Assembly: GCA_003024785.1 (NCBI GenBank)
Contig: PUQB01000051.1
Coordinates: forward strand, 393,430-457,429
Reading direction: 5' to 3'
Length of the DNA: 64,000 nt
Source: Selaginella tamariscina
Lineage: Eukaryota; Streptophyta; Lycopodiopsida; Selaginellales; Selaginellaceae
The position numbers were made by a program, and so were the translations under genes. The notes beneath the pieces were generated by a model that saw only the letters and a program-made list of their open reading frames with translations, was not told the origin of the DNA and did no database searches. Positions within the stretch are counted from its first letter, which is position 1. Each line of letters begins with the position of its first letter. Shown here one piece after another: positions 3,470 through 43,229 of the stretch.

Positions 3470-4517
3470 TTTATATGTTTTAATCACTCTTAGTCTTATT
3501 AATTATATTAATTAAGACATGCAACTACTGAAGCTATTTCAAGCGACTTCTATGTAAACATATTTTCTATAATAAGCATATATACTAATTGAGAAATACA
3601 CGTGGCAATTTGATGTAAAGGATATATTGATAGATACTTAATACGACTTAACAGAGGCACAGGCGTCTCCCCATATATTAACAGATGTTTGAAACGTTCC
3701 CTGTTCCAAGCACACACACACATTCATATCTACGCGCACATATACGTGTATATATGCTACAAGAATATTCATAGGAAACAATGATCAAAGATGGTTCCAT
3801 GGTCTACTCTCTGAATCCAACCTGAGTTCAATTCTCGGTGGTACCTTCATTTAGTACCTTCTGCGTGTATAATAAGTATATAGTATGCATTCTATATATA
3901 GCCCCGCATTTTAATAAGTAAACAATCAAATCTTATTTTAAGTTTATCATAATACACTTACGATGCGTAAATACGTTTTCTTAGATATTATTTTAAAAAA
4001 CCATATATATACACAAGCACCGAAAGTAAATTTCAACATTAAAAAATCATCAATTTTTCATTGATAAATCAAGTTTAATTTCAGAGAAACTACCAGATAT
4101 ATATATATTCTATACAAAGCTATATTTTATAAAACGTATTCAGTATAAAAACCCCAAGGTTAACGTTTTCCTTTTATTTTGTATATGCATATGTTTTTAT
4201 TATCGAGCCATACACACATATTAACAATTTAACACATTAGTTATAATGAATTTGATATACCATATAATTATATATATAAGCCAATTTGCAAATCAAGTAA
4301 GGATTGCTTATAGACTATTCACATATGCAGCATTTTATCTTCTTTAACAGAAACATGGTTGTACGAATATACATATAACAACTAGCTAGTTCGTAGTCAA
4401 TTGATTGATTCACTTAACCAAACTGGTTCAGGTTAGTATAGCGGCCTGTTGAATTATATGTTTATCTTATACATTCACACACATTTTTTGAAATTAAATT
4501 ATATGAAGCATATGCAC
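3470..4517. other. AT-rich intergenic DNA up to the element boundary
   Basis: No gene is recognised apart from the tRNA-like sequence at 3793-3846. TATATA runs and short CA repeats are common. Any upstream exon of the dioxygenase-like gene should lie here on the minus strand, but I cannot identify one. Confidence 0.5.
3793..3846 (+). pseudogene. Shortened tRNA-Gln-like sequence
   Basis: The first bases (GGTTCCATGGT) and the 3' half (CTCTGAATCC, then GAGTTCAATTCTCGGTGG) match plant tRNA-Gln(CUG) in order. That half includes the CTG anticodon, the B-box and the closing acceptor strand. About 18 bases of the D arm and the 5' side of the anticodon stem are missing, so this should not fold as a working tRNA. 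It may be a decayed tRNA gene or a tRNA-derived SINE head. No clear SINE tail was identified. Confidence 0.55.
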
Positions 4518-4538
4518 GTTGTAACTAAAGTGGGCATG
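4518..4538 (+). repeat. Left terminal inverted repeat
   Basis: Begins GTTGTAACTAAAG and ends GGGCATG. Its reverse complement lies at 19435-19455 with one mismatch. The flank to the left reads TATGCAC. Confidence 0.7.
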
Positions 4539-4679
4539 ATACGTGAAAATGGGAATATAAAATAAATTACTAATTAATACTTAAGTTTTAATTATTAATT
4601 AATCATTTAATTAATATGTAATTAAGCCTTAAATATTAATTAATTAATTAATTAATCCTTCAATAACCTTACTTAATAA

Positions 4680-4712
4680 GGAATATTCCTAAAATATCTT
4701 AGAATATTCATA
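4680..4712. repeat. Left subterminal GAATATTC motifs
   Basis: The 8-bp palindrome GAATATTC occurs at 4681-4688 and 4702-4709, within 200 bases of the left inverted repeat. Three more copies lie within 140 bases of the right one. Paired subterminal motifs often bind transposase in DNA transposons; here that role is inferred from position only. The stretch 4540-4890 is otherwise very AT-rich and holds no gene. Confidence 0.45.
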
Positions 4713-4893
4713 TTATTCTAAAAATAGTTTACAATAATGAAGAAATACTATCAAACATAATTACAAATGAAATCATTTTCTTATCAACATGTTAATTTTT
4801 TTATAAATACTTTCTTTCTATCATACAAAGAAATCTTTTTATTTTGTCTAAATCATCACTCTCCGGATTAATCAAATCATTTTGGTCAATATC

Positions 4894-5976
4894 TTAATGT
4901 TGTTGCCACCACTTAACACTCTCACGAATGCAATTGGGAGTTGCCATCCTTGTTAATACATAAGATGTGATAAGAGAAGGTCTGCATAAAGGCTCATCTA
5001 AAAACTGACGTTCCTTAAGAATAATATTATAAAGCGCCCGGTTGCTATCCTTCATTTTATAAAATTCAATATCACGAGAAAGAAAAGCTTCAGGAAATGT
5101 ATGATACGGTGGATACTGCTCACAAAAATTTTCGAGATTCTTCTTTCTGAGGCACGTATCCAAGTAGTTCACTAGCTCATCCATGATATCGGTATCAGAA
5201 TATGGATCGAAAGTGATTGGATGAATACAAGCAATGTTTGGTTGGTTGAGCATAGCCTTCTGAGGAGAGTCGTCTACTACTAAGATATGTGCATTCTTCG
5301 TTATCCTTAAGCGACTGATCTCCCCATGAGTCCCAATTATTCTTTCATTCTTGAAGAAGTATGGCTTGCTTTCCTTTCTTATATTGTGAAATTCGAGAGG
5401 TTTATGACACATTCGCTGGTCAAAAATCCAATCTTTACGAATCACCTCTTCTGCAACACTACAATGTTTCTTAAGTAAACTCAACAGCGGTGTTAAGTTA
5501 TGAATCTGCATGCATGACCAAATCCCCACAAGCGCACCCATCTCCTTAAGCTTTTGAAAGAGACGATCCAACCCTGGACGAAAAATAATATCATATCGAA
5601 ATTTACCATGACAAGGAATGAAATCTCCTTGTTTGATTTCTGTTTTTCGATGAAGCAGAACACCATTGACATCCAACAACACAATATGGCCATGAGTAAC
5701 ATGAGATAGCGTTGCCTCTTGAATACTTTGCAAATCACTTGTTTGCTCCCTTTCACATTTATCCGTTGCCACTATTTCGTTGCCTATCCCTTCATCATTT
5801 AATTGTACATCATCCTTACAAGATTCAGATATTGCATGCGCTGAAGAAATTGATTTCGGAACTGAAGCCAATAAAAATGATGATGCAAAAACTGAAGTGG
5901 CCCCCATGGTAACGATGTTTTGAGCTGCATTATTATCCATTTCCTGCATGAACTCTGTCATTCTGACATGTGGCAC
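4894..5976 (-). CDS. FCP1/NLI-interacting-factor-like HAD protein
   Basis: A 360-residue open frame. The N-terminal ~90 residues are poorly conserved. From about residue 95 an FCP1-like HAD domain begins with HIVLLDVNGVLLHR (first catalytic Asp; the usual second Asp of DxDx is Asn, as in many plant DLNG-type relatives). It continues with FRPGLDRLFQKLKEMG and GIWSCM, and near residue 230 ILVVDDSPQK supplies the late acidic motif. HAD members of this group dephosphorylate Ser/Thr, for example on the RNA polymerase II tail, or act as TIM50-like factors. With DxN the activity here is uncertain. MTEFMQEMD, five codons in, is an alternative start, and a possible short leader exon lies near 6007-6046. 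It is the leftmost gene of the large element. Confidence 0.78.
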   Translation of the reverse strand: MPHVRMTEFMQEMDNNAAQNIVTMGATSVFASSFLLASVPKSISSAHAISESCKDDVQLNDEGIGNEIVATDKCEREQTSDLQSIQEATLSHVTHGHIVLLDVNGVLLHRKTEIKQGDFIPCHGKFRYDIIFRPGLDRLFQKLKEMGALVGIWSCMQIHNLTPLLSLLKKHCSVAEEVIRKDWIFDQRMCHKPLEFHNIRKESKPYFFKNERIIGTHGEISRLRITKNAHILVVDDSPQKAMLNQPNIACIHPITFDPYSDTDIMDELVNYLDTCLRKKNLENFCEQYPPYHTFPEAFLSRDIEFYKMKDSNRALYNIILKERQFLDEPLCRPSLITSYVLTRMATPNCIRESVKWWQQH

Positions 5977-6233
5977 AAGAAATTGTCGCCAAACCCCTCT
6001 CTTACCTCATGGCAATGCTGAAAATCCATGTTCTCAATTATTTCATTACATCTGCAAAATGATAATTAGCTGACCTTAAAATTATCAAGGTATATTATTT
6101 ACCTTGTTAATGTGTGACCCATGTTTGAACTAAAAGCTTCATTAATCCTTGAGAATTTATTTTCTGTACAAATATAAAAGAAATATACAAAAATGCCTTA
6201 TGTTACACTCATTTACAACTATTCATCACTCTA

Positions 6234-9200
6234 TCAATTCATTATCAATTCTTCTTCGCTATTACCTTCTGAATGAGGCGAAGAAGGTCTAAGCCGCTTG
6301 TGAGATGGTTCAAGATCTTCTGCATCTTCTATTGATGTTTCCATGGGTCCTGGAGTGTGCGAATGTTCTGTACTCCTCGAGATAACTTCCGGTCTAATAT
6401 CTGATTGATGTTCGTTCTCAGACTCCGAGATTGAACCAGATTCACCTTCAGAGCTATCGCACTTATCTGGAGGGAACTTTCTCAAATACGCCTTTATGGA
6501 TCGTTGGGGTACTCAGTTGAGACCCAATCTATCCACTTGTTCAGGTCCTCAACCATGGTCTTATCCTTCTCAACGGCAAACACACATGTATGCCGAAGGT
6601 AACACTCCTTCAAGACGGACCCCCTAGTGCAGTAGTCAAAAACCCACGCATCACTGTGAGGACCCCTGATCAAGTTGACGATGCTCCGTGCCGCTTGACT
6701 TGTAATGTTTGGATAACGTACATTGACGAATACGTCACTCATACCTATCGGTGTATGGATGGAGGTTCAGGGCCGTTGGAGTGCAAACAGATGCCTGGCC
6801 AGTCATTTGGAAGCTTGAAATTGTTTGGCGCATTCCTAACAACCAAGTGAACAACAGTATCAATGCACTTGGGATTAGCATCGTTCATATAAAATCCTGT
6901 CCAACGATGTCTATTCTTCTTGGCGAAGGCGAAGGCAAAAGTATCGGTGACATGAGCAAGAATCAAGAAATAAATACCTGAAAAAGTAGGTATCAGTGAA
7001 GAGCGCAAGCATGAATTCAATAATAAATACCTTCTATGTATATGCTTGCACGGCTAAGTTTCTCCACCAGATCCTCTAGTGCCCTATCTGTCGAAAGATT
7101 TTTTGACACCCGCCGATCCATCACGAACAATTGAAACGGTTTCCTACAAGCAGTGATGTTACCCCATAAAGTCTCCGAATCTAACAACAAACATCTGTAG
7201 GGCTTGTCGTGATTCGTAGCATCCTCCTTTATAAGGTTCAATTCGGTTCTCCGCTGCTGAAGGACTGCCATAAGAGAAGGCGTCATCCCAATGTTCTCCT
7301 TTTTGGCGTTGGCGTGCAATAGATTCTTGCCTAGATCTTCCGATTGGTTCACCCATTCGACAAGCATATCATCGTTCGTCACATGCAAATATTTGCTGAC
7401 CTCTTCATATGTTGAAGTCGAGGTCCAACCCAGTTTGTGGCAGTGTATTCCCAACCACTCCTTGAAATGCCTGACCGTCTTCAACTCCATTGCCTTGAGA
7501 TGAAAAGGAGAGGTTGGGCTGCTGTTATTAATTTGTAGTTTGCCATCGATCACCAAATCAGCCAAGACTTCCATCTCCTCCATCGTTGTTCCATTTAAAG
7601 GCTTCAACCATGTGAGCTTGAAATCGTTGTCTACATCCTTTGTAGATTGAACAGACTTAGCCTTCGGCGTCTTACTGGGTTTCTTTGCAGACTTTTCTGA
7701 GGGCTCCCTTCACTTGTCTGCTTCTTCTTCAGTGTTCCTTTTGAAAAGGATTCCATAATCCCCAACCATTTGGCAAAGATCCTATCTTCGGGGCAAGAAA
7801 TCAACATCATCAGAAAGGATGTTTCCTTCCCGCCCACCTGGGCAAAATCAACTGCTGCAATTTCTTCAACTCTCTGAGGAAAAAGACAGATTAATATACC
7901 GGCGAGATAAATCCCGCCCAAACAATTTGCTTACCCGGTATTCCGCAGATTGTGTATTCCCTGCGGTAGCTCTTTGTGGTCGCTGAAGAGATTCCCACAC
8001 GGCTCGCGTGTGTTTAAACTTCTCCCATATTTTGCTGTTGTAGTGGTTGGTGTCGGCAGCGTCCCATTCCGCCGATAACTTATGGTACTGCTCGATTGTG
8101 AGATTCGGCTTAGCTAAAAACGCCGATCTTTTTGTCAGCTTCTCACGGGTATGCTCGAAAGTTTTGTTGCCATCGTTCCTTTGTTGTGTTCATCGAGAAG
8201 TCGTTGGGCTGCCGTTATTGTGTGCTGGCCACTAATGATGTAGTACTTGATAGATCTTTTATTCTCCGTCTGAATCTTCATGAGTTGTTCTGGTGTTGTG
8301 ATCCAGACTTTGTCAGCACCCTTTCTTCTTTCATAGTATGGACACAAAACAGCATTATGTGGAACGGTATAAGAATTGTCGTCCTTCATCTTCTCCATGA
8401 GCTCAGCTACACGTTCCTGGTTGAGTGGCCTGTAATTGAAGTTTGGGTTGACGCTGCAATATTTAACCCTACAAGGATAAATCTTATCATCCAACATCAT
8501 TTCCTTGTGACTTATTGCAGCATGAGATGCCACAGGTGCAGCTGACAAAACGATTGATGATTTTCTTTTGCGATCCGAATCAACATGTGTGATCCCCGAC
8601 TGCAGCTGTTCTAGTGTTCTCGGCACACTCCTCCAGCTCCCGAAGCTTCCTAAGCAAATTGAACGTGATCTGTAGAGAACCTGAGACCGAGCCACCTTCT
8701 CAATCTCCCTTATGATGTCGCTGTGTTCTTCTTCAATGTCAAGAGGGAAGATTGCTCCACTTGCTGATTTTCTGTATTGTGAAACAATATCTCCTGACAA
8801 TACACCTACTCGATGAGTCTGAAGATCTTCGAAGTAGACATCCAGATGGATCCCCTCCATAGATGGGCTTTCGTTGAGTTGAAGAAGAAACTCCAAGGTC
8901 AACATCATTAGTGAACACGTGAACGTCATTATCCACAAGTCGACAAAACCACCCGAGATTAATGTTGTAACTGACGACCTCTGGATCCGAGAACGTGACA
9001 TTGGATGGAACAAGGCATATCTGTCGAGCATCGTCCAATCTGGGTTCGCAGCCTGCTTTCGGGTGCTTGACTAGCGAATCTACTTTCCATTGTTTTGCTT
9101 GTCCATGAGATGTGACAGAGGTTAATTTGACAGCAACCATGGTTGCTCCAATGCGCTTCCCATTTATCTTAAAATATGGCCAAGTTGATTCCAGAATCCC

Positions 9201-9336
9201 CCTGCCCATCTCTTCTCCTGCTCTTGTCTTTAATGTCACTTCAATTCCACATCTGAATACAAAAATGATTAGTTCAAGTATCCGAGTATAACAGATTTTA
9301 TTTTAATTCTTACCCAGAATTTGACGACGACTCCAT
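6234..9336 (-). CDS. ParB-like plus DNA-methyltransferase-like protein
   Basis: Multi-exon gene. A likely start is MESSSNSG at 9336, followed by an intron (about 9256-9313), a conserved N-terminal region (YFKINGKRIGATM, LGWFCRLVDNDVHVF), a charged linker, then a ParB/Srx-like domain near 8.45-8.19 kb (RPLNQERVAELMEKM; YYIISGQHTITAAQRLL). Clear introns follow near 7.87-7.93 and 6.98-7.03 kb. The C-terminal part (7.25-6.50 kb) has the order of beta-class N6/N4-methyltransferases: a strand with CLLLDSETLWG where DPPY would sit, later WVFDYCTRGSVLKECYLRH like the SAM-binding FxGxG strand, then AVEKDK. Both motifs depart from the active consensus. An acidic Ser/Glu-rich tail ends the protein. Coding sense shifts frame several times. 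ParB fused to such a methyltransferase is a phage and plasmid architecture. The role here is unknown. Confidence 0.6.
7901..7918. repeat. Lone GGCGGGATTAATCCCGCC-type palindrome in an intron
   Basis: GGCGAGATAAATCCCGCC sits inside the likely intron of the ParB/methyltransferase-like gene. It matches the array motif at 16 of 18 positions, lies about 1.8 kb from the nearest array, and is the only outlier I found. Confidence 0.6.
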
Positions 9337-9677
9337 ACTAATGACTCGATCTCCTTGTTTATCAAATCGTCCTTCTGCAAAATAATACACTATAAATATA
9401 AATTATATAAAAACGCACACACACTTGTATAAACCCGAATATACAAAAATAATACACAGAGAGAAGTAGACGTAATTAACTGTCCGAAGCTCACATTTGT
9501 TTAGTGCAAAAGAAAGATAACATTTCGTTTTAGAACCACCACAAATGTGAGCTCTGGACAGTTTTACATAGATTCCTAGCTTTTACTCGAAATATTATGA
9601 TAAGATGATAAAAGTAAATAAAATGAGATATGCAACTTATATATACTAATACACATATATATTCACATGGAAGGTGC
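9240..9677. other. Upstream region of the ParB-like gene
   Basis: Holds the short first coding exon (9314-9336), a good acceptor before it (TTTTGCAG near 9375), then AT-rich DNA with CACACA and TATATA runs up to the first palindrome. An inverted pair around 9487-9555 (CCGAAGCTCACATTTGT against ACAAATGTGAGCTCTGG) could form a long hairpin. No other gene seen. Confidence 0.5.
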
Positions 9678-11097
9678 GGCGGGATTAATCTCGCCACCCC
9701 TTCAATGCCTCCTGAAAGAGTGGGCGGGATTAATCTCGCCACCTTTCTGGAGGCCTTGAACGGGAGTGCGGAATTAATCTTGCCACCCTTCTCGGTCTCA
9801 GAGAGAACTGGGCAGGATTTATTTCTCACACCCCTTCAGTGACTCCAGAAAGGAGGCGGGATTAATCTCGCCCACCATGTAAGGGATGGTTAAATGAATC
9901 TCGCCACCCTTCCCAGTCCCCTCCATTGGTATGTTGTAAACCTTCTACGTCTTAGACAGAAACGTTTGGGATTGGTCCAACTCACCAATGGAGGAAAAAG
10001 GGAAGGGTGGCGAGATTCATTTCTCCAACAGGCATTGAAGACTCGGCGGGATTAATCCCGCCGCCCAGGGCCTTCACTCGATCCCTATGCGGCGGGATTA
10101 ATCCCGCCGGACGCCAATTCCCTGCGCGGAATCGGGCGGGATTAATTCCGACGCCTAGGCACTTCAGGCAGGCCAATGGCGGCGGGATAAATCCCGCCCG
10201 ATTTCGCACAGGGCATTGGCGTTCGGCGGGATTAATCCCGCCTCCCAGGCCTTCACTCGGGCCGATTCTGCGCAGGGCATGCGTACGCGGCGGGATTAAT
10301 CCCGCCCACCATGTAAGGGATGGTGAAATTAATCCCACCACCCTTCTCGGTTCCCTCCATTGGTATTTTGTAAACCTTCTCCGTCTCAGACAGAGTTAGG
10401 GGATTGATTCAACATACCAATGGGGTAATGAAGGTTCGGAGATTAATCTCGCCACCGGGTAATGAAGGTTCGGAGGCTAATCCCGCCGCCCTCTCGTAAA
10501 TCATGCGCTCACACATATATATTGGCTGCGGCATTTTTGAACAGGGATGGGTGGGGGCGGGATTAATCCCGCCCAGGGAATTCACGCAGGACATGAACGG
10601 CGGGATTAATCCCGCCGCCCTCCGCGAAGGGCATGAGCGTGGGGCCGGATTAATCCCGGCGTTCATGTCCTGCGTGAATTCCCTGGGCGGCGGGATTAAT
10701 CCCGCCGCTGTACGACAAACCGAAGAGCGGCGGGATTAATCCCGCCGCCCATGGCCTGCGTGAGGGGCCTCGGCGGCGGGATTAATCCCGCCGCCCATTC
10801 CCTGTAAATGCCCTGCGCGGAAACCGGCGGGATTAATCCCGCCCATTAGAACTTCACACAGCCCATTGCGGCGAGATAAATCCCGCCGCATTCCGCGCAG
10901 GGCATGGATGAGCGGCGGGATTAATCCCGCCGCCCATAGCCTGCGTGAAGGGCCTCGGCGGCGGGATTAATCCCGCCGCTCACCATGCCTGAAGGGCCTC
11001 GGCGGCGGATTAATCCCGCCGCCATGGCCCCATATATAGCGGCGGGATTAATCCCGCCGCCAGGCTATAAACCTATAGCGGCGGGATTAATCCCGCC
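9678..11097. repeat. Palindrome array A (GGCGGGATTAATCCCGCC)
   Basis: About 29 copies of an 18-bp perfect palindrome or close variants at roughly 45-bp spacing. Fourteen are perfect, starting at 10045, 10091, 10225, 10289, 10556, 10599, 10689, 10729, 10775, 10826, 10914, 10960, 11041 and 11080. Variants (for example ...ATTAATCTCGCC, ...ATAAATCCCGCC) dominate at the left edge, as if older. Spacers of about 25-28 bases are related to one another and appear in both orientations (CCTGCGTGAAGGGCCT, GCGCAGGGCAT types). Each half-site GGCGGGA resembles an E2F core and the centre contains ATTAAT. It is not a CRISPR: the unit is a palindrome with related, flipping spacers, and no cas genes are present. 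Confidence 0.92.
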
Positions 11098-11099
11098 GC

Positions 11100-11795
11100 T
11101 CGAGGGGCTTAGCGAGATAAAAACACACACATATATATATGTGTGTGTGTATATATATGTATGTATGTATGTATGTATAGGAGTGTACGTGTGTGTGCAA
11201 GAGATAGATAAATAAATAAAATTATACAGTACTGGTACACCTAATATATGTGTACATAGGTATATATATGTGTGTATATGTATATCGTGTGTATGCGTGT
11301 GAGCGAAACAAATAAAATCATACAGATAAACAAACACACACACACACACATATATATACACAGGAGTGTGCGTGTGTGTGCGAAAGATAAAACTAATAAA
11401 TAAATAAAATTATACAGATAAACACACACATATATATGTGTGTATATATATAATCTATAGAGAAAGAGAGAGAGTCTGTGAATATATAAGCATATATATA
11501 AACTAGTGTTGTATGTATGTATATATGTATATAGGTATATATATATGTGTATATGTATATTGTGTGTATGCGTGTGTGAGCGAAACAAATAAAATCATAC
11601 AGATAAACAAACACACACACACATATACATACACAGGAGTGTGCGTGTGTGTGCGAGAGATAAAACTAATAAATAAATAAAATTATACAGAAAAACACAC
11701 ACATATATATATGTGTGTATATAGATATATAACCCATATGAATATATAAGCATATATATAAACTAGTGTTGTATACTATTTGTTAATATGCATTG

Positions 11796-11865
<70 letters not shown>

Positions 11866-11947
11866 GCAGTGCGCGTGTGTGTGGAGAGATAGATCAATAA
11901 AAAAAAATTTACAGATACTGGTACACATAATATATATATATATATAT

Positions 11948-11985
<38 letters not shown>

Positions 11986-12270
11986 GCAAGATCAATAAAA
12001 AAAAATTTACAGATACTGGTACACATAATATATGTATGTATATATGTATATAGGTATATATATATATATGTGTATATGTATATCGTGTGTATGCGTGTGT
12101 GAGCGAAACAAATAAAATCATACAGATAAACAAACACACACCCACACACACATATACATACACAGGAGTGTGCGTGTGTGTGCGAGAGATAAAACTAATA
12201 AATAAAATTATACGCACACTCCTATACATATATACATACATACACACACACACACACATCTCACCTGTGT
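11100..12270. repeat. Microsatellite block (CA/GT/TA)
   Basis: Dense TATATG/GTGTGT and CACACA tracts, including GT runs of over 30 bases at about 11826-11862 and 11950-11982. A longer unit recurs about four times (GTGTGTATGCGTGTGAGCGA, then AAACAAATAAAATCATACAG), near 11290, 11567, 12085 and in part elsewhere, so the block grew by duplication. The Tyr/His-rich open frames here are artefacts of the repeats. Confidence 0.85.
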
Positions 12271-13161
12271 GCACAGCCGCCGCCGCCGATTTCACAGCCG
12301 CCGCCTCTTGAAACCCTAAGAATATACCTAAACCCTAAAGGAATTAAATATATATATCAACCCTAATAGAATATTCCTTCTGAGAATATACTTAAACCCT
12401 AAAAAGAATAAAATATAGATTCGCCCTAAACGAATATTCTTTCATTATATTATTAGCGCGTGCGTGTGTGGGTGTATCACATACACCTCAAAAATATAAA
12501 TCATGCAGGGATTTAACATGTGTGTGTCCATGAGAGTGTTAAAGTTTCATGTGTATCAATACATACATACACATTGCATATATTAATACACATAATATAT
12601 ACATACACACGTGTATACACACAGACATACACACATATTACATGGGTTTAGGGTTTAGGGTTTAGGGTTTTGGATTTAGGATGGATCATGCATGGTGTGT
12701 ATGTATGAGAGAAGAGAGAGTGTTGAAAAATTATTTTTGTACACATTGCATATATTAGTACACATATATACTTACACATATTATACACAGATATACATAC
12801 ATAGTATATGAGAGAAGAGAGACAGTACATATTAATATGGATCATGCATGGTGTGTATTATACACACAGACATACATACATATTAGTACATAATATTAGA
12901 GAGACCGAGTACATATTATAGATCATGCATGGTGTGTATGTTTGAGAGAAGAGAGACAGTACATATTAACATGGATCATGCATGGTGTGTATGTATGAGA
13001 GAAGACAGAAAGTACACATATATACATACAGAGTACACATATATACATACAGAGTACACATATATACATGCACACGTGTATACACACAGACATACATACA
13101 TATTACATGAGTAAATTCATTGTGTTACATATTAGGGTTTAGGGTTTAGGGTTTAGGGTTT
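12271..13161. repeat. Telobox-like and TTTAGGG repeats with a tandem unit
   Basis: AAACCCTA teloboxes lie near 12310, 12332, 12397 and 12425. Direct TTTAGGG tracts of about four units are at 12644-12680 and 13132-13161. Between them a unit built on GGATCATGCATGGTGTGTATG plus GAGAGAAGAGAGACAGTACA recurs about four times (near 12682, 12838, 12920, 12972). Plant-type telomeric repeats at internal sites mark the host as a plant and may reflect repair or regulatory teloboxes. Confidence 0.75.
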
Positions 13162-14282
13162 GCTCCCAACAAGCTTAATATAAATATTACACATGTAAAT
13201 TCAATGTGTTACATACAGTCACACAGATTGAGTACATATATCATACATGCGTTGAACATGATGTTTTCAATAAAGAAGCAACCTATTTCTTCAGTTTGGT
13301 TTAGGGTTGTGCATGTGTGTGCATATGTGTTTTTGTAAGTTCTTGTAATGCGTGTGTAAATTTATGATTGTGTTTATATATGTGTGCAAAACAAACATCG
13401 AATAATTAAGAAAATAAAATTAATAAACACACTAGGAACATATTTTAAATTATACATAATAATATATGATTTTATCTAATATATAGCCATATATAGTTTT
13501 AATAATATATATTAATTTAATATTGATAAAAAGGTTTAACATTGAAATATTCTTGAAATAATAAGAAATTAATTGAGAAAATCCCATTAATATATACAAA
13601 TGTAAATTAAGTACTCAAATAATTAACTAAATTAATTATCATAATCATGTTTAATATTGGAATATTCTTGGAATAATAAGAAAATAATAAAGAATATCCC
13701 ATTAATATAAAGAAGATTAATTACTCAAGTAATTAAGGAAATGATATTAATATATATATTATTAAAACTATATATGACTATATATTAGATAAAATGATGT
13801 ATTATTATGTATAATTTAAAATATGTTCATAGTGTGTATTAATTTAATATTGATAATAAGGTTTAACACATGAATATTCTTGAAATAATAACAAATTAAT
13901 TGAGAAAATCCCATTAATATATACAAATGTAGAATAATTACTGCAATAATTAAGAACAAGACTAATTTAATTATGATAATCAGGTTTAATATTAGAATAT
14001 TCTTCAAATATTAATAAAATATTAAAGAATATCCCATTGATACTAGGAAATGAAAACTAAATACTCGAGTAATTAAGAAAATAATAATAATAAACAGACT
14101 ATGAATATATTTTAAATGATACATAATAATATATCAATTTATTTATTGTATAAGTATATATTTATATATATATATAATATAAATATACTTGAATACTAAG
14201 AATGTAGAATATAGTCTAAAATTTCGTAATATTAAACAGCTTGAATCACTTGAATAACATTAAATGCAATTTTAAAATACTC
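13162..14282. repeat. AT-rich inverted repeat and ~120-bp tandem repeats
   Basis: Arms of about 95 bases at 13422-13515 and 13744-13848 are inverted copies with only a few mismatches and a loop of about 230 bases. A third partial arm lies near 14093-14140. Interleaved are four direct copies of a unit of roughly 115-130 bases, beginning near 13530, 13648, 13860 and 13981, with GAATATTC or a near match, then ATCCCATTAATAT and CTCAAGTAATT. No coding sense seen. It sits between the two palindrome arrays. Confidence 0.75.
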
Positions 14283-14600
14283 ATTGGAACTGGAGAGTAT
14301 ATATGTCAGAGTGTCGGATATTTGTGTCAACTCATCTTAAATTTTATTTTCTGTTCTTTTTAAAAAATTTGAATTTCTGACATATGTATTGTCGGTCTGA
14401 CATGTAAATTTGAAAATGCATTTAATTTCCCACTCAAATTCAGATCTGGTTCTTTCTCCGGCAAGGGTTTCTTCATTTCTGTATTTTTCACTCTTTAGAT
14501 CTTCTTTTTTCTTCATAGTGATCATCTCAGGAGCGAGATTAAATTGGGTGCTATTCTTTATAGGAAAGCACGGCGCCTTCAGTGCTGTTTACAAGTAAGT
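14283..14600 (+). promoter_or_regulatory. Possible leader exon of the DUF7869-type gene
   Basis: A pyrimidine-rich stretch (TTCTTTCTCC, CTTCTTTTTTCTTCATAG) leads to a segment ending GTTTACAAGTAAGT, a good splice donor at 14594. The next acceptor that makes sense is GTGCAG at about 15827, which would place palindrome array B inside the leader intron. Weak evidence: splice signals and gene order only. Confidence 0.35.
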
Positions 14601-14763
14601 ATTATAAACAAATTTAAAAATACTTATTAAGATTCACTCTCTTACATTCTCTCTTAAAATTACAATTTAGGGGTTTAGAAATGCATTAGGATTATAATAT
14701 ATTCCGTTAGGGATTTATCACGTTTAAATATCCTTTTAACTTAATATTCTAGGTTAACCGGGG

Positions 14764-15678
14764 CGGCGGGATTAATCCGGCCATTTCTTTTTCGCCTCTT
14801 TGAAGAAGTGGCGGGATTAATCCCGCCACCATCTCCCGGGCAATGCTTCTCCGCCACTGAAAAAGAGTGGCGGGATTAATCCCGTCGATAACCTTCTCAA
14901 CTGATGAAGAGTTACCAGAATTTATTAGAAAGAGTTGTCGGCGGGATTAATCCCGCCAACCATTTTAGGAGGCAGGGAAGGGGTGGCGGGATTAATCTCG
15001 CCACCACTTCCTGTTTTAAAGATTTGGGGACAGGATTTATCCCGAGATCTCTTTGAAATCATAGTTTTGGAGAGAGTTATGTGCGGGTTTAATCCCGCCA
15101 CCCATTCCCCGTCGTAAGAATTGTGGGCGGGATTAATCCCGCCTTGGACTCCCTCCGACAAGGAAGAGCCGGCGGGATTAATCCCGCCGCCTCTTCCTCC
15201 GACGAGGAAGGGAGTCCGGCGGGATTAATCCCGCCGACTCTCTCCGGCGAGGATGAGTCGGCGGGATTAATCCCGCCGGACTCCCTTCCTCGTCGGAGAG
15301 AGTCGGCGGGATTAATCCCGCCGGACTCCCCCCGAGGAGGAAGAGGCGGCGGGATTAATCCCGCCGGCTCTTCCTTGTCGGAGGGAGTCCAAGGCGGGAT
15401 TAATCCCGCCGACTCTCTCCGAAGGGGTTGAGTCGGCGGCGGGATTAATCCCGCCGGACTCCCTTCCTCGTCGGAGAGAGTCGGCGGGATTAATCCCGCC
15501 GGACTCCCCCCGAGGAGGAAGAGGCGGCGGGATTAATCCCGCCGGCTCTTCCTTGTCGGAGGGAGTCCAAGGCGGGATTAATCCCGCCGACTCTCTCCGA
15601 AGGGGTTGAGTCGGCGGCGGGATTAATCCCGCCGACCGTTCCTCGTCGGAGGGATTCGTGGGCGGGATTAATCCCGCC
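14764..15678. repeat. Palindrome array B (GGCGGGATTAATCCCGCC)
   Basis: About 20 copies of the same 18-bp palindrome as array A. Fifteen are perfect, starting at 14810, 14940, 15126, 15171, 15218, 15260, 15305, 15348, 15393, 15438, 15483, 15526, 15571, 15616 and 15661. From 15126 onward start-to-start spacing is 42-47 bases, mostly 45. Spacers are variants of GACTCCCTCCGACAAGGAAG and its reverse complement, so neighbouring units face either way. A 178-bp block with four palindromes is duplicated in tandem (sites 15305-15438 repeat at 15483-15616). Left-edge copies are more degenerate. Confidence 0.92.
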
Positions 15679-15820
15679 CATCAGTTGTATTAATCAAACA
15701 TGAGATATTATCTCTAAACATAATTATGTATTATTGCATATGCATATTATTAAGTAACCGTAATTCAGATTTCTTAAAAATATTGCATAAACAGATATCA
15801 TAAATAATACAATTATTTAT

Positions 15821-18800
15821 GTGCAGGACAATATGTTTAATACTGGAGATAAAGTATGTCTTCTTCGGAACAACGAGATAGTTGGCACTGGAACTGTGGA
15901 AGTTCGAGATAATAATGCATCATGTCACAATATTTCCCAAGGATCTTGTGTGTACGTATGGGTGAACACCATTTTCAAGCATGTTGAGGTTCTGGGAATG
16001 GAATTTGAGGAGGGTTCTCCTGTATTGTGGAATTTGGATGAAGTCAAGGCTGACACAAAATATGCAGAGTCACAAACAAATAGTAGCACGAGTTTACCAG
16101 ATGATGGCTTGCCTGCTGTGATGGATGAGGTGATTCTCTTTCTTCGTGAGATTGAAGTCGGAAGAGGCATCATCACAGCTATAAATCCAATGGAAGCAGT
16201 GTCAGAAGAGAAACTAGGGTCCGACTTCGTGGGTGTAGTTGTGACAGAGGTTTCACCTAATGGCACATTGTATCCTGGATCCCTTCGTGAGGTGGCGAAC
16301 ATCTGAATTAAGACGGCAAGATGGTTCAACATATTCTGGGTTGGATTTCAATAATAACAACCCGGAAGAAACAACTCATATTTAAGAGGTTCCTTGCATT
16401 GGTCCTATTGTAAGAAAAAGGCGATTCATGGGTTGTAGATCTTCCCCTGCAAGTTTCAGCAAGAGGGTAAAGATGGATCCTACATCTTCCGAAAGTGTTA
16501 CGAGCATTTCCACGATTGACTGTTGCAAGAAGAAGTGTTGTCAGATGGCAGACCGGAATGAAATTACCCAATGTAGACATGTCTTTCGTATGCTCACCCA
16601 AAAGCAAAGGCATGAGTTTGTATATGCTGCACTAACTGGGTGTATTGATGGAATGGCCTCGGACACAGGTTATCAGAGTACATCCATGGTATTTAATAAG
16701 GTGGCCATCTGCTTCAAAGCTTGGTACAGTATATACGGGATCCCAAAGACCACGTTCTACCGTCGGAGGGATGAGTGGCTAGATGGAGCGCGAACCTCAG
16801 TTCATGGGAACACTGGCTTGGTCAAAACCCGCTCTCACATCATGGCAGCCATAGAGATACTCAAGGCTTTTGTGGAAGCAAATGCAGACAGGATGCCTCA
16901 CAAATGCCGAACCACAAATGCAGGGGTCAGGGAAAATCTCAAGGTTTTACCTTCAATCTACACTCAATTGAAACTGTGTGAACATGTGAACAAGTGCCTC
17001 AGTTTGATGGGGCTCCAAGCAATCTGCACTGGTACCTTCAACAACATATGGAATACTCATTTTAAGGATGTGGAGATTGCAAAACACTCTAGCTTTTCTA
17101 AGTGTGACACTTGTACATCATTGAAGGCTGCAGAGGCTTGTGCAAAAACCTTGGTGGAGATCACTACCATTCAAAGGAAGATGGAGGCCCACATGATTGC
17201 ACAACAAACTTGTCGGTCTCAGTACTATGCACACCGCATGCTTTCTGTGTCACGCCCATCAGAGTACCTGTGCTTGATCCATGACAAGATGGATCATTCA
17301 AAGACCAGCATTCCAAAGCTCTTTGCAACACCAAAGTGCCTTGGAAATGTCATGAAACTTCCGATTTCTTTAACAGGTGTGCTAACACATGGACACGGTT
17401 GTGAGTCATATGGACACTTTTCACTTCCACATTGGTCTAGCGACTCCAATTTCACTATTGGGTCGTTAGCCATGTGTTTCAGAAACCTTGAAGCCCACTC
17501 AAGACAAAGTCCTATCAGTGATCTCAAAGTGAAGAAACACACCTTCACCTTCAATCCTTTACTAATGCTCTCATGAACACGTCTGCACTTGAGGCTACTT
17601 GGGAATATGAGAGGCATTGTCAGCAACCTGCACAAAAAACAGATGGCCCTGTTGAGAGTTCAGGTTCAGTGGAGGGATCTAGCTCAAATAGTGTACATGT
17701 GTCCTCAACATCAAATAAGCTTCCTCGTCATTTGCTTTTACAGATGGATAATTGTGCAGGCGAGAACAAAAATAGGTAAATCATTTTACTTAAGGGTTTC
17801 TCAAGCTCATACTTACTTTTATTTTCTAGATATGTGCTAGCATACTTGTCAATGCTTGTTGCCAAAGGTGTGTTTGAAACAATCACGCTCAGTTTCCTTA
17901 TGGTTGGTCACACTCATGAAGATATTGATGCGTTCTTCAGCAAGGTCTCCAACTCTACAAAAAGGACAAGTGCACTTACCTTACCGCATATGATGAATCT
18001 TTTTGAAAATTGCATCTCCAAAAAAAGTTGTGCTTTGCTTGTGACTGAGGTGCCAGACTTCAAAAAATTTCTCAAGGAGTATATAAAAGAAGGGAGTGAT
18101 TCTTTAGTTGGTCACCTTGTGCCGCTACAATTCTTTTTCTCCATACGAGATGGTATACCTATTATGCAGTACAAGTTACGGCCATCAGAGCAGGAGTGGT
18201 TACCGAAAGAGGGCTTAATGCTCTTCAAAAGTGGAGAGGATGGAAAGCCACTTCTCCCAGAAGGACAACCAGACCCTATTCCATTGAGTGCCCAGCTCAA
18301 GGAACAAGAGGTTATTATTGATGGCATCAAAAAATATGTGGCATGGGTTCAAAAATCGATGCCAAAGAATTCTGATAAGGCAACTGGTTACTCAGAACTA
18401 TATAAGCATGTGGTCAACTATTGGGAGACTGTTGTTCGAGAGTTGGAAGGGCCTACTGTCACAAGTACAGAATTGCAACACCCTTTCTGGCCTAAAACAA
18501 GGTGGCGAGAGGAGATTGAAATGACATCACTGAGCACAGACGACATAGAAGCCAGTAGTGATGTGGAAGTGCAAACCCCACACTTTGTTGGACAAAGGAA
18601 CCAAAAACCTAAAGCATACTTTGATTGCTGCAAGGATCTTCAAAAACTAATGATGGTTCTCATTACTCCAGATGCGTCATATAATCAGCCTATTTGGATG
18701 GGTCAAATTATCGACACACCTGAAGTAATCACAAAAAAGTATTGTTAAGGTTGCATGGTTCAAACCACAAAAAAGGCGACACGAGAAGGAGAGCGAAAGA

Positions 18801-18956
18801 TATAATGGATGCCTAGAGAAAACATGGTCTCCCAATCAAAAAGACCCAGCATGTTTTATAAATGTTAAATCCATTCGATATGGGTGGATGTCAAGAAGCG
18901 TTGATAAAGTCACGATTAACAAAACTGCAAGGGAATGTATGTTTTCTGAAGCTTAA
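15821..18956 (+). CDS. DUF7869-type transposase-like protein
   Basis: After acceptor GTGCAG the frame from MFNTGDKVCLL gives about 155 residues resembling N-terminal domains of plant En/Spm-like transposon proteins (GTGTVEVRDNNASCHNISQG). A second block (16428-17576) has a Cys-rich patch, YGIPKTTFYRRRDEW, and LCLIHDKMDHSKT. A third has LLQMDNCAGENKNR, an intron (17776-17829), then SFLMVGHTHEDIDAFFSKV, the DUF7869 signature. The D, E and H/D residues in these motifs are plausible RNase H-fold catalytic positions (inferred). The last ~70 residues (WFKPQKRRHEKES to FSEA, stop at 18954) continue in a neighbouring frame after 18735. Blocks one to three also change frame near 16.3 and 17.55 kb. It is the best candidate for the element's transposase. 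Confidence 0.68.
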
Positions 18957-19434
18957 AGCAATTACAAAATTATAAAATATCATATATTTAATATTCATAA
19001 TTATTATAAACTCTTTAATAATAGTACCAAATTGTATACTTAACTATATAAATTTAAAAAATGATATGGAAGATTGACTATATTATTATAGGATTTATAT
19101 ATATATTATTACTACTACAAATTTTTAATTAATAATGTTATATTTAAATATTAATATTTTAATAACAACATCAATATTTATATAATGTACCTCTTATGCT
19201 CTTCCTTAATTGTTATATTAGGCAATATATTATATAATTTAATACATTCTACTTTTATAATGTTATTAATTTTTGTTCAATGAATGCTATAATTTATTAA
19301 AGGGTAGAATACAAAATAGAATATTCTAAAGAATATTCTCTTTTCAAACATATATTCTAAAGAATATTCCTTTAATATTAGAAAATGCTAATTAAATAGC
19401 TAAAATTGTAATTATTAGGAAATGGGACTATAGC
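18957..19434. repeat. Right subterminal AT-rich region with GAATATTC motifs
   Basis: No gene. GAATATTC lies at 19319-19326, 19331-19338 and 19362-19369, within 140 bases of the right inverted repeat, mirroring the left end. The rest is TA-rich. Confidence 0.5.
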
Positions 19435-19455
19435 CATGCCCATTTTAGTTACAAC
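19435..19455 (-). repeat. Right terminal inverted repeat
   Basis: Reads CATGCCCATTTTAGTT then ACAAC, the reverse complement of 4518-4538 apart from one base. TTGCATGCATG follows outside. Confidence 0.7.
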
Positions 19456-19776
19456 TTGCATGCATGACAAAGATCATTTTGTCCCTTTATTCTGAATTAA
19501 GAACCAAGTGATGCCTTCAGTTCTAATGATTTTCAGCCATCAAGCTCTGCCATGTCCTTGTAATATAAGTGCATATAAATATCTATTTATGATACCAAGA
19601 TTGGAGTTCAAAGGATTCCACTAGAATGAATAGCTTGAACGACCCAAAGTGTGCATGTGGGCGTGCTTGTTGCATATGTAGATAATTAATTATTTCAGAA
19701 AAGAAAAAGAATAAAAAAGAACTTTCACATTTCAATTAGGATTTCAATACAGAAACATTTCAATACTTTTGTCAGC

Positions 19777-39028: not shown

Positions 39029-39883
39029 ATGGATTCAACATTTGCGGAGGTGCATGATCTTGTGGAGACTTCTCTAGGGTTATCGACGGTACTGCCATTC
39101 AATGCGCCACAGCCTGTGGTGGCTGTCAATCGATCTCCTTTGCCGCTTGTTTTTGATGAATCCGATGTGCAGGTTCTCTCTTTTTTATTTTTATTACTTC
39201 TTTTTTATTTGTGTTGCAGGAGATCCCGAATGAGAACTTTAAGAAAAGACGTGGTAGACCTCTCAAGGCTGAAGGAGGGTTCAAGAAGGTAAAGAAAGAT
39301 CCTGATGAAATGAAAGCATCAAGATGGGAGGATAAACATGTGGAGCTCCTCATTTGTTTTAGGGAAGAGCTGCTGGAAGAATTTAGCAAACCCCCAAAAC
39401 AAGGAGTCAATCTGTGGCAAATTGTGCAGACGAAAATTGTTGGTAAGCTGTCTTTTTTTATTTTTTTAAACCTTTTTAATATTGAATTTTGTACAGCACA
39501 ATCTCCAGATTTCAAAAAGGATGCAGAGGCATGTCGTAATAAGTGGAAAGCAGAATATGCAGAATACAAAAAGCTAAAGGCATACAATGAAGTCTCTGGC
39601 AACAACAGGGAAACAAACAAATGGTATTATCTTATTGATAAGTTCATGAGTAACAAAAGGACATGGTGGTGCTATTGACAATGAAGGCATTGGACTACCT
39701 GCAACTAATGAGGATGCACAAGAGACAAAGAAAGGACAAGGAAATAAAGCTTCAAAACTTGGTAATGAACTCAAGGAAACAAGGACTGCCATTTTAAACA
39801 CAGTTAACCAATGGGAAGAACGTAAAGTTGTTGTTCTGGAACGTCTTGAGGGGATTTTGCAGCAGCTTGTGGACAAGCTATAA
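39029..39883 (+). CDS. Myb/SANT-like protein of the Harbinger element
   Basis: Three exons with proper splice sites: 39029-39172, 39220-39442 and 39497 onward. The central part is a trihelix-type Myb/SANT domain (RWEDKHVELLICFREELLEE, NLWQIV, ACRNKWKAEYAEYKKLK, KWYYLIDKF). Such proteins help Harbinger transposase enter the nucleus and bind the element's ends. The region after KWYYLIDKFMSNK reads best in a second frame (GAIDNEGIGLPATNEDAQE ... LERLEGILQQLVDKL, stop at 39881), so one frame change near 39.66 kb is likely. The C-terminal end looks like a coiled coil. Confidence 0.75.
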
Positions 39884-39953
39884 AATTGTATTTTATTTTG
39901 TAATGTATGTATTTGGACACACACTTTATTCTGCAGACACTGTTGATAATTAG

Positions 39954-40072
39954 GTTCGAATTATGCTGTCCATGAAGCTGCGGTGAGCTACTTGATTATA
40001 CTTGGCAAGGACAAGCCTCTGTGTAAGCTTGATATGGTGAAAGCTGGTGTCATCGACAATGTCCTTGAGAGG
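39954..40072 (+). pseudogene. Captured exon piece, CSI1-like armadillo protein
   Basis: Reads [19 protein letters not shown] then [17 protein letters not shown], ending at a donor-like AG|GTAGCT. This resembles armadillo repeats of plant CELLULOSE SYNTHASE-INTERACTIVE (CSI1) proteins, from memory of the family. Only one short exon is present, with no start or stop, so it is a captured fragment. The family call is moderate; that it is a foreign exon within the transposon is firmer. Confidence 0.5.
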
Positions 40073-40155
40073 TAGCTCTCTCTGTCTCTTACTATACTCA
40101 AACAGTACTTCAGTTAAACTAAGTTATTAAATATTATAATACATATTTGCTCAAG

Positions 40156-40598
40156 GTTTTATTGCTCGGTGCCACGTATTTTACTGCGTTGGAGACCATG
40201 GACGTGGTTGAACACGTGGGACGTATTGATGAGCTCTCCAACAGGGCTAGGCTCTTGCTTGTCCTGCTTGTTGCTGTGCTTGATGCCTTCTTTATCCTCT
40301 GGATATTCTCTTCCCTCTCTAGAACTCTGGAGAAACTCACTGTATGTCTCTCTCTTGTTCATACATATATGTGTGCGTGTGTGTGTTGATACGTATATGT
40401 GTGTGTGTGTATTATATGGACAGACCTTGTTTTGCAGGCGATGAAGCTAGCTGTAAAGCTATACAGAAGATTCACAAACGCGTTGACGTTTGCAGTTATT
40501 GCTTCTGTTGGATGGATTGGCTATGAGGTACAGATATTTATAACACAGACACACACACACACATGTGTGTGTGTGTTTATATATATATATATATATAT

Positions 40599-40639
<41 letters not shown>

Positions 40640-41016
40640 CTTATAACATATGTGTTGTTTGAGTGCAGTTATACTTCAAAGCTTCGGATCCATTTGGTGA
40701 GAATTGGCAGAACGCATGGGTAATTGCTGCATTCTGGAATGTGGTCTCCTTCTTACTTCTTTGTGTATTGTGCTTGCTCTGGGCTCCTTCACAGAACTCC
40801 ATGAGGTGTGCGTGTGCGTGTGTGTACATTCTTGGAATATGCTGACTTGTTATAAACAGATACACATATTCTGAAGAATCTACGGAGAAGTTTGATAAGG
40901 ATGAAGTTGGATTAACATGTGGGACTGTGAAGAATACATTTGATATTGAGAAAGCAGCAATGAAGCCGGATAATAAGAAGTTTAATATGGAGGATAATGT
41001 AGATAAACGGGAGTAA
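40156..41016 (+). pseudogene. Captured 3' exons of a GOST/TMEM87-like seven-TM protein
   Basis: Four exons with intact splice sites and matching phases: 40156-40341, 40438-40527, 40669-40805 and 40860-41016. The protein sense is VLLLGATYFTALETM, then LDAFFILWIFSSLSRTLEKL, LYRRFTNALTF, SVGWIGYE, LYFKASDPFGENWQNAW, LLWAPSQNSMRYTYSEE and an acidic tail to a stop. This matches the last membrane segments and tail of plant GOST (lung seven-transmembrane receptor/TMEM87) proteins of the Golgi and endomembrane system. The 5' half is missing. Introns are kept, so capture was from genomic DNA, not a processed transcript. Confidence 0.8.
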
Positions 41017-41183
41017 AAAACAGGTAATTTTGTTAAGAGTTTTTTATGAACATACGAGAAGACTCTTATAAGCTTAAGATGAAATAATTATGTGTGGAGA
41101 TTCATCAGAGTCTTGTACCTGATGGATTATTCTTTATAAACCTGTAATAACAGTCTTAATCCAGGCGTGCGTGCGTACGTGTG

Positions 41184-41422
41184 TTACCAGTCTGGTTTGT
41201 CAAGCCCTTCCTCAATGTAAGTCGCTTTGTACTGAATATTCTTCTCTGCAAAAAAAAACCAGTATCAAAACCGCAAATTGTATGATTAATAGAAGCTTAC
41301 CTTCTAGCACCATGTATATGCGTTGAGAATATGTATAAATATGTATTGATACTTACAGTCTCCATGCTGGTTGCTAGGACTCCCAGTACCCCTTCAAGTT
41401 GGTAATTGGATACGTCAGCCAT
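41184..41422 (-). pseudogene. Small two-exon coding fragment, origin unknown
   Basis: On the minus strand MADVSNYQLEGVLGVLATSM and ET run to a good donor (GTAAGT at 41356). After an intron with a T-rich acceptor (TTTTTTTTGCAG) come KNIQYKATYIEEGLDKPDW and a stop at 41184. The open frame also continues upstream of the Met to 41539. The splice signals look real. I do not recognise the family. It may be a third captured host fragment or a small element gene. Confidence 0.45.
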
Positions 41423-41731
41423 GGCACAAATTCTACAACGTCTTAATCTCTCAAACTTTGTTTGTTTAATAAATGTCACCGAAGTTGCAGAAGAAGCAGC
41501 ACCTATAATATACACACAAAAGTACCAGCTTGCATTCACTCAAACTAATTCAGCCTAAACATAATTTTAAAAGATTTAAATTTTAAAAGCAGTTGAGCCG
41601 CTGTTTCTGGTAGAACTCAAACATATAAATTAAATTATACATAAACACACACGCTGTAATATTTAAGTTTTAAAAACAAAAAATAATTGACTATATCACT
41701 CTAACACCAAACAAACTAGTTCTTACTCTTC

Positions 41732-43229
41732 TTACTCACTAAAGTCATTTTCTCCAAACACTTGCCTCACAAGGTTTATGCTTGCATTCTCAAACAACAC
41801 TTTTGCCAAAGCATCCCTCCTTTCTGAGTCTGAATAGCTACTCATGGCCTGACATATATTACTTATTGTTGCATTGTCATCGTGCTCTTCAAGACTTCTT
41901 GCTAAAGCTTCCATAGGAGTCAATCCTATTGCTTTCGCCCGATGTAAACTATAAGATGATGCTTTTGCTACCTCACTTTCATCAAGCTTACATCGCTTAA
42001 AGGTATCTCTCACCCTTTGAAAAGCCAATGTACTCTCCTCCTCAGTTTTTATTGTATCTTCTAACTCTTTTTCAGCTTCAACCATCCAAGCATCATTAAA
42101 ACTATCACCATGTAGAATACATAAGTTGTGAAGAACACAACATGTAGCCACTTGATCAGGCACATACTTTAACTTGCTATCATTCCTCTTCATAAGAATT
42201 CTGAAACGAGCTTTCAGTTCACCAATTGCACACTCCACTGGCATACGAGTGCTAGATTGAATGAAGTTCCAATAGTACTTCATTCGATCTAAACCTTGCT
42301 TGCTTCCTTTGTAAGGAGACAACATCCAAGGTTTAATAGCATATGCAGCATCTTCAACTAAACAATACGATCCAAGATATCCATCTTAATTCTCAAATCA
42401 GCTGCTGACATGTTAAAAACATTGGAGTCATGTAAACTACCTGTCCATTCAATGTCATAATTCCATATATACTTCTTTGCTGAAAAATCAACTGAAGTAT
42501 AATAGAATGAAAACCCTTCCTATTATAATAATCTTGTGGATGAAGTTTTGACACAATCACTTGTAAATAACTTCCATCAATAGCTCCAACAACACTAGGA
42601 ATGCCTCTGATCCTCTCAAACTCTTTAGATAGTTTTTCTAACCTTTGTGGTGATGGCCAAGCAATGCATTTATCTCGAAGCTTTATTTTTATTGCATTAC
42701 AAAACTCCTTAACTATCTTGTGCACCGTTGTCATTCCAATACCGTACTTATCTGCAATATTCTTAATGAGATTACCAGTGCCTAACCTGGTAAGGGCAAC
42801 ACACACTCGCTTCTCGAGTGGAATGGCTTGCCGTAAATGAGTGTCATGCCGCTGTAAATATGGGACAAGTTCTGTACATAGAAATGAGAAGGTATCTCGT
42901 GATACACGCATCCTTGACTTGAACATAACATCATTATAAGAAGCAAGAAGTGTTCTTTCAACATACACATTAGGCCTATCATACATCCAAATAAATGGAG
43001 AATTCCGCCTTGTCATGCCATCACATTTAATGGCCAATTCAAAGGCCTTAAGAAGCAACTCAATTGCCAACATGCCTGTGATGCTAGTAGTTTCTTTTAA
43101 CATACCTCGAATGGAGATCACAATCGCAATTACAACTCGAATGAGTTGTTTACAATCCATTTCTCTATGTCCAGAATCCATAGCCAAATGCCGCCAAACC
43201 TCTCCTTGCACAAATCTAGGGTAACTCAA
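41732..43229 (-). CDS. HARBI1-like DDE transposase (interrupted)
   Basis: The N-terminal part (42393-43229) has the HTH-like region (LALTRLGTGN-type, NIADKYGIGMTTVHKIVKEF) and the first catalytic Asp in VVGAIDGSYLQV. The second part (41732-42325 and just upstream) has the second Asp region (DAAYAIKPWMLSPYKG) and the Glu of ECAIGELKARFRIL, then a helical tail. The stretch linking them (about 42.33-42.45 kb) changes frame, so the enzyme as read is split in two. Order D-D-E and neighbours match PIF/Harbinger. It lies opposite in strand to the Myb-like gene, as usual. Confidence 0.85.

Follow-up and report, generated by a model that had tools for sequence, protein, structure and literature searches.

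Genes and layout of the element

The stretch of DNA analysed here (the window, 64,000 nucleotides) is C849:393430-457429, on contig PUQB01000051.1 of the assembly GCA_003024785.1 of Selaginella tamariscina (300,702,823 bp in 1,391 contigs), and its positions 4512-19461 are one copy of a family of DNA transposons with terminal inverted repeats (TIRs), of 14-15 kb per copy. Two minus-strand genes occupy the left part of the element, one HAD/NIF phosphatase-like (4894..5961) and one ParB-like (6234..9336), and a single plus-strand gene on the right (15833..18956) encodes a putative transposase of ca. 1,020 amino acids with a DUF7869 domain. Between the two divergent genes lies a central AT-rich region (11100..14400) that contains GAATATTC and TTTAGGG motifs. 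An earlier note on this DNA, made from the letters alone (the sequence-only reading), had proposed this layout for a single mobile element, and we found it both in the window and at syntenic places in other copies.

Ends and target site duplications

The segments at 4518-4538 and 19435-19455, which the sequence-only reading had taken as the ends, match in inverted orientation at 20 of 21 bases. Among inverted 21-mer pairs that have at most one mismatch, are separated by over 2 kb and survive a complexity filter, they are the only one in the window without a palindrome core. The full inverted repeat spans 27 bp, 25 of them equal, with the left TIR (ATGCACGTTGTAACTAAAGTGGGCATG) at 4512..4538 on the plus strand and the right TIR at 19435..19461 on the minus strand, six bases of it falling outside the first proposed limits on each side.

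The termini were defined by a nested insertion, in which the element at C80:563986-578788 sits within another copy of its own family. Its flanks, minus one ATAA, join into a sequence that continues, with small gaps only, through the window copy and eight of ten other pieces of the assembly (E1-E10, see below), with 93-98.8% identity over 335 columns for E3 and ca. 400 columns for the others. Because this nested copy gives an empty site, the duplication is of 4 bp, and the element starts with ATGCAC and ends with TTGCAT. On this basis we rejected both an element delimited at 4518-19455, since the empty site moves each end 6 bp outward, and a target that would always be ATGCAT with a TGCA duplication. 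The inverted ends of the sequence-only reading are therefore real, and its termini were misplaced by 6 bp. Applying the 4-bp rule, the window copy is flanked by a GCAT duplication at 4508..4511 and 19462..19465.

Perfect 4-bp duplications occurred in 11 of 23 end pairs (ATTA, ACTT, TAGA, CGTT, CTAT, ATAA twice, TATC, ATGT, TCTT and GCAT), none of them longer, and by our own arithmetic ca. 0.1 of the 23 pairs would show one by chance. This set comprises 18 of 20 end pairs fetched from the assembly, E2, E4, E5, E9 and the window copy; it leaves out L061/L062 and L063/L064, whose right end was not found within three mismatches, as well as E1, E3, E6, E7, E8 and E10, for which both ends were not found within that limit. 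Many copies terminate at identical bases which, together with the duplications and the nested empty site, bears out the mobility that had been presumed from the window.

Copies across the host assembly

A search of the host genome for further 21-bp ends, as the sequence-only reading had advised, located GTTGTAACTAAANTGGGCATG with up to two mismatches at 4,715 places (2,403 forward and 2,312 reverse), and its reversed control at none. Likewise, the right-end motif pair GAATATTCNNNNGAATATTC was present at 1,697 places, compared to one for its control. From the places listed for this pair on C1 and C2 we chose ten right ends, and the corresponding pieces, E1-E10, were read at length. In all except E1 and E6 a left end lies within 20 kb, recognised by the TIR itself (up to four mismatches) in E2, E4, E5, E7, E9 and E10, and by an alignment starting at the left end in E3 and E8; the principal left-hand block alignable with the window is 94.5-98.5% identical to it. 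Additionally, the first 100 perfect GTTGTAACTAAANTGGGCATG ends listed yielded 20 distinct end pairs that combine both end types, separated by 10.2-18.1 kb (median ca. 14.5 kb); the C80 element was counted twice among the 21 rows of this tally, from which two like-ended pairs were excluded. Multiplying 1,697 right ends by the 8/10 of pieces with both ends and by 14.5 kb, the family would account for ca. 20 Mb (6-7% of the assembly). This is a coarse extrapolation, based on few copies that were not drawn at random, and it may include allelic duplicates. As a rough estimate, then, end-paired copies number well over a thousand.

All three genes were found at their expected places in 16 of 17 further end-paired copies (the 20 end pairs less E2, E5 and E9), each sampled as three slices at the expected gene positions, and some of these slices are at least 99% identical to the window. 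Of the ten pieces read at length, all contain the transposase gene, eight the HAD gene, seven the ParB-like gene, and seven all three. These counts support the unity of the element, which the sequence-only reading had put forward from a single copy. The seventeenth sampled copy (C42:16455-26606, 10.2 kb) has both 21-bp ends perfect and no ParB-like region at the expected place; its ParB slice maps to the central region, so we consider it an internal deletion. E2 lacks the ParB-like core, and an internal part of this copy (L008+L007, ca. 10236-13250) is replaced by a stretch that is open in several frames on both strands and that reads like a tandem repeat.

The putative transposase

The transposase gene has a predicted first intron at 14595..15826 (plus strand), with the donor present in 10 of 10 copies and the acceptor in nine of ten, and another intron at 17776-17829. 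Its DUF7869 label, already assigned by the sequence-only reading, agrees with Pfam (PF25273; E 7.5e-27 and 94.6 bits for the second open reading frame, ORF, of the window), and the read-through protein scores 159.5 bits vs a gathering score of 26. Three acidic motifs are encoded on the plus strand: HDKMD, the first, of catalytic type (17280..17294), LQMDNC (17738..17755) and GHTHEDID (17906..17929), with the G, H, D and D of the third being invariant in the alignment. An RNase H-like fold with acidic motifs was predicted for a relative, P0003, and the same motifs occur in the transposase of the window, for which we thus predict an RNase H-like domain with three acidic residues.

Relatives with DUF7869 were retrieved from liverworts (Calypogeia and Riccia) and from many JGI/ENA contigs. 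Among the genome contigs searched there was only one short relative contig, L116, carrying a full-length DUF7869 gene whose product shows 28% identity over 849 columns; this 4.3-kb contig is labelled as a cyanobacterial metagenome-assembled genome and may be contaminating eukaryotic DNA. The N-terminus of the transposase gives a TNP1-like (Transposase_23) match with E 0.03-0.04, under the Pfam cut-off, and a stretch of 37 residues in it resembles part of the N-terminus of the ParB-like protein (identity 32%; E 3e-5 when only these two sequences were compared). As a separate observation, the transposase gene of E6 (L015) is interrupted, at the window-equivalent position 17065-17072, by a Ty3/Gypsy-type retrotransposon with reverse transcriptase, RNase H and integrase domains.

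The minus-strand genes

The assignment of the leftmost gene to the HAD phosphatases, made in the sequence-only reading, was substantiated by a Pfam NIF/HAD match (PF03031, E 3.8e-12; 46.6 bits vs a gathering score of 21.8), and the gene has the motif DVNGVLL. A catalytic DxD motif was not found in either the window ORF or the E2 read, which have DVN in its place, with the second aspartate of motif I replaced by asparagine.

The ParB-like gene is predicted to contain four coding exons, with introns at ca. 9313-9253, 7934-7874 and 7030-6978, and its splice sites are present in the copies that align. A further predicted first intron extends from 12264 to 9375; the acceptor was found in seven of seven aligning copies and the donor in four, the remaining copies not aligning through position 12264. 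Reading by eye, we recognised a ParB-type motif, YYIISGQHTITAAQ, and on the C-terminal side a sequence resembling methyltransferase motif I, FDYCTRGSVL, with no DPPY. The best ParB profile match was a weak one to a PHROG ParB (E 0.055), and there was no Pfam ParB match, so the ParB half of the ParB/methyltransferase label given by the sequence-only reading holds only weakly. Nothing firm for ParB or methyltransferase came from a PDB sequence search, phage tblastn or two protein-database searches, one of them using the 311-amino acid window ORF alone. Matches of a ParB piece to a P-type ATPase (NCBIfam, E 0.0019, 16 bits vs a cut-off of 431) and to Herpes_UL95 (Pfam, E 0.078) were taken as chance, and a single-sequence fold model of the ORF, with a predicted local distance difference test (pLDDT) score of 31.7, was too low for use.

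Selection between copies

To compare coding changes between copies, each variable codon was counted once, using only variants present in at least two copies; these w tests take sites as independent, though the copies are related, and p values are uncorrected across segments. With 8 to 11 sequences, w was low in the middle of the transposase (0.14, p 4e-7) and in DUFb (0.20, p 6e-3), as well as in ParB_mid (0.22, p 7e-6), MTmid (0.15, p 8e-6), ParB_N (0.35, p 0.03), ParB_C (0, p 0.01), the linker (0.21, p 0.05) and MT_c1 (0.27, p 0.04). DUFa was not significant (one synonymous and no non-synonymous variant), and the value for DUFb weakened to 0.58 (p 0.09) once singletons were included. The HAD gene showed no significant constraint with nine sequences (w 0.81, p 0.49).

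We then tested five segments with 17 extra copies. This enlarged set gave w 0.32 (p 6.4e-3) for the HAD slice in 26 sequences, 0.27 (p 6e-6) for ParB_mid and 0.17 (p 0.02) for ParB_C in 24 sequences, and 0.12 (p 1.5e-3) for DUFb and 0 (p 6e-4) for DUFa in 28 sequences. Singleton variants had w from 0.6 to 2.0, behaving as assembly errors would. Frame breaks were mostly small indels at copy-specific places, and in-frame stops amounted to 12 in 18,498 codons of the five slices, excluding codons adjacent to indels. Taken together, shared amino-acid changes between copies are fewer than expected in all three genes, transposase, ParB-like and HAD. Synonymous divergence is uneven along the element, low in the HAD gene and the last transposase exon and high in the middle of the ParB-like gene, which suggests recombination or gene conversion between copies.

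Palindrome arrays and subterminal motifs

The 18-bp palindrome GGCGGGATTAATCCCGCC has 29 exact copies in the window, all between 10045 and 15678; allowing up to two mismatches there are 41, every one inside the element, in line with the sequence-only reading, which had met it nowhere else in the window. Most of them lie in two arrays, a left one (9678..11097) and a right one (14765..15678, with spacings of mostly 42-47 bp), inside the predicted first introns of the ParB-like and transposase genes, respectively. The ParB-like gene has a single diverged palindrome (7901..7918) in one of its coding-region introns, and E3, E4, E5, E7, E8, E9 and E10 have one at the corresponding place. The palindromes recur in other copies: in eight sampled ones, with up to two mismatches allowed, 244 lie inside the elements and 10 outside, all 10 beside E5 in a stretch resembling the left array. 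The palindromes therefore belong to the element, in its predicted intronic parts.

The motif GAATATTC occurs 10 times in the element, compared to a mean of 0.56 and a maximum of 2 in 100 Markov simulations. In agreement with the shared subterminal motifs noted before, it is present near both ends, twice on the left (4681..4709, at 4681 and 4702) and three times on the right (19319..19369, at 19319, 19331 and 19362). A variant of the right-end motif, GAATATTCTTGAGAATATTC, was seen at C14:29725 and several other places, and perhaps marks a related transposon family.

Other elements in the window

The window also contains a Ty3/Gypsy-type retrotransposon on the minus strand (43975-48525), with gag, protease, reverse transcriptase, RNase H and integrase in broken frames. 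The segment at 39160-43283, with a Myb/SANT-like ORF and a DDE_Tnp_4 ORF, is probably a PIF/Harbinger element.

A probable giant cut-and-paste transposon with candidate helper genes

We are highly confident that window positions 4512-19461 represent a recently active, autonomous-type giant DNA transposon, of the DDE cut-and-paste type, with helper genes kept by selection. The cut-and-paste mode follows from the ends, the duplications and the predicted fold taken together. Several observations weigh against this interpretation. No perfect 4-bp duplication was present in 12 of the 23 end pairs (three fit with 1-bp slack and nine show none), and the frames of the ParB-like and transposase genes are broken in the window copy, with breaks that differ between copies and that reflect either assembly errors or decay. 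The fold model is weak at the third acidic motif (residues 205-207 with pLDDT <50), and a Foldseek search with the transposase model gave no match at E <= 0.001. Constraint was not significant in the N-terminus (p 0.12) or the C-terminus (no shared variants) of the transposase, nor in MT_c2 (w 0.42, p 0.3) or MT_tail (no synonymous and five non-synonymous variants), and the degenerate methyltransferase-like region had no methyltransferase profile match in Pfam, NCBIfam or PHROGs, leaving that half of the original label unconfirmed by profiles. Moreover, the element is known here from DNA sequence alone, and the link between the ParB-like protein and the palindromes is drawn by analogy.

The HAD and ParB-like genes might instead be passive passengers, that is, captured host or foreign DNA riding in a Pack-type-like manner on an ordinary two-ended transposon. 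The HAD gene would fit this in showing no significant constraint of its own in nine sequences, in having one aspartate of motif I replaced by asparagine, and in its few shared synonymous variants (3 in 369 codons, vs 21 in 251 for the ParB-like gene), as expected from a younger acquisition; however, the low w of both the HAD and the ParB-like slices in the enlarged set, and the presence of both genes in 16 of 17 sampled copies, make passengers unlikely. Far less plausible is a segmental or satellite-like repeat of 15 kb spread by recombination: inner and outer parts of the copies do differ in divergence, suggesting recombination or conversion between them, but the sharp common ends, differing flanks, 4-bp duplications and DDE-type gene argue against it, and the nested C80 empty site contradicts it. 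We give equally little credit to an endogenous virus or a virus-derived, Polinton-like element. Size and gene cargo might evoke one, and large DNA viruses often carry ParB- and methyltransferase-like genes; nevertheless, Pfam detected no polymerase, capsid or packaging domain in seven element ORFs of at least 150 codons and two read-through proteins, the viral contigs searched contained no relatives of the transposase, and the element has genes with predicted introns, 27-bp ends and target duplications of 4 bp.

As for the working of such a transposon, the plus-strand gene would produce a large transposase with a weakly TNP1-like N-terminus, a central DUF7869 domain of predicted RNase H fold and a C-terminal tail. 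This protein would act on the 27-bp ends, probably aided by the subterminal GAATATTC motifs, and insert the element at a staggered target of which 4 bp are duplicated. The ParB-like and HAD/NIF phosphatase-like proteins of the minus strand would be helpers under selection, and helper genes plus arrays suggest self-recognition or self-regulation. The ParB-like protein most likely recognises the element itself, with the palindrome arrays in both first introns as the obvious candidate sites, and by binding to them it would regulate how the element is expressed or silenced. It is about an even call, however, whether the arrays are bound by something else, acting as intronic enhancers or accessory sites for a host factor or for the N-terminal domain of the transposase. 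Their location in the predicted first introns of both divergent genes, far from the ends, would suit this, as would the similarity between parts of the N-termini of the two proteins and the half-site GGCGGGA, which we take to resemble an E2F site; conversely, a ParB-like protein together with dense palindromes makes a suggestive pair by analogy. More tentatively still, and as a possibility we rate well below even, the family might be a eukaryotic transposon with a self-recognition system resembling the ParB-parS of bacteria. Its ParB-like protein would bind the perfect 18-bp palindromes arrayed in both first introns, mark or spread over the DNA of the element, and so control expression or escape silencing, which would have aided the spread to well over a thousand copies of 15 kb.

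Comparison with known systems

DUF7869 (PF25273), to which the domain of the transposase belongs, is a family for which Pfam names no function; here it is placed in a mapped transposon whose ends and duplications are defined, and is given a predicted fold. Among the matches listed in literature on DUF7869, on Sola with Selaginella, on Selaginella DNA transposons and on ParB transposons, we found no report of this transposon family. The weak TNP1-like match of the N-terminus is shared with CACTA/EnSpm elements. These duplicate 2-3 bp of target, and we rejected them since the ends here are ATGCA(C/A)GTTGTAAC, not CACTA, and the duplication is of 4 bp. Likewise, KDZ (Kyakuja-Dileera-Zisupton) elements were rejected on duplication length, which is 8 bp in that group.

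The closest parallels described are in the Sola superfamily, which shares 4-bp duplications, short TIRs, a large transposase and, in some families, accessory genes; in the accessible part of its description, Sola2 has AT-rich 4-bp duplications, TIRs of 12-21 bp and an 888-amino acid transposase (PMC3627910), and Sola1 is listed in Physcomitrella in the table of a review (PMC9033089). The sequence-only reading knew of no described plant family with this gene set. The pairing is not unprecedented, because the available portion of a report on the brown alga Ectocarpus describes Sola1-1_Ec32, a giant DNA transposon of 21.5 kb whose ParB-like protein with a DNA methyltransferase domain is encoded on the strand opposite the transposase (PMC12477816). 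The same source states that ParB/methyltransferase genes are known from green and red algal transposons, and its authors suggest that these proteins may act by binding, and modifying, the transposon that encodes them (PMC12477816). The family examined here would extend ParB-carrying transposons, reported there in algae (PMC12477816), to probably a land plant. It adds two features, a HAD phosphatase-like gene in which amino-acid changes are under-represented and, within predicted introns, arrays of perfect palindromes as a concrete candidate binding target. With this family it becomes testable why helper genes for binding or modifying DNA are retained by some transposons.

Because a superfamily call rests on transposase homology, we do not assign the element to Sola1; by its described features rather than by transposase comparison, it works in the manner of a giant Sola1 element, to which it is perhaps related. 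Both are giant and carry a ParB-like gene opposite the transposase, whereas the HAD gene and the palindrome arrays go unmentioned in the portion of the Ectocarpus report that we could consult (PMC12477816). They also differ in their numbers: according to that portion, the Sola1-1_Ec32 (Sola-1) giant family makes up 0.17% of the Ectocarpus genome and only two of its 1,989 copies are intact (PMC12477816), in contrast to an estimate of well over a thousand end-paired copies in S. tamariscina.

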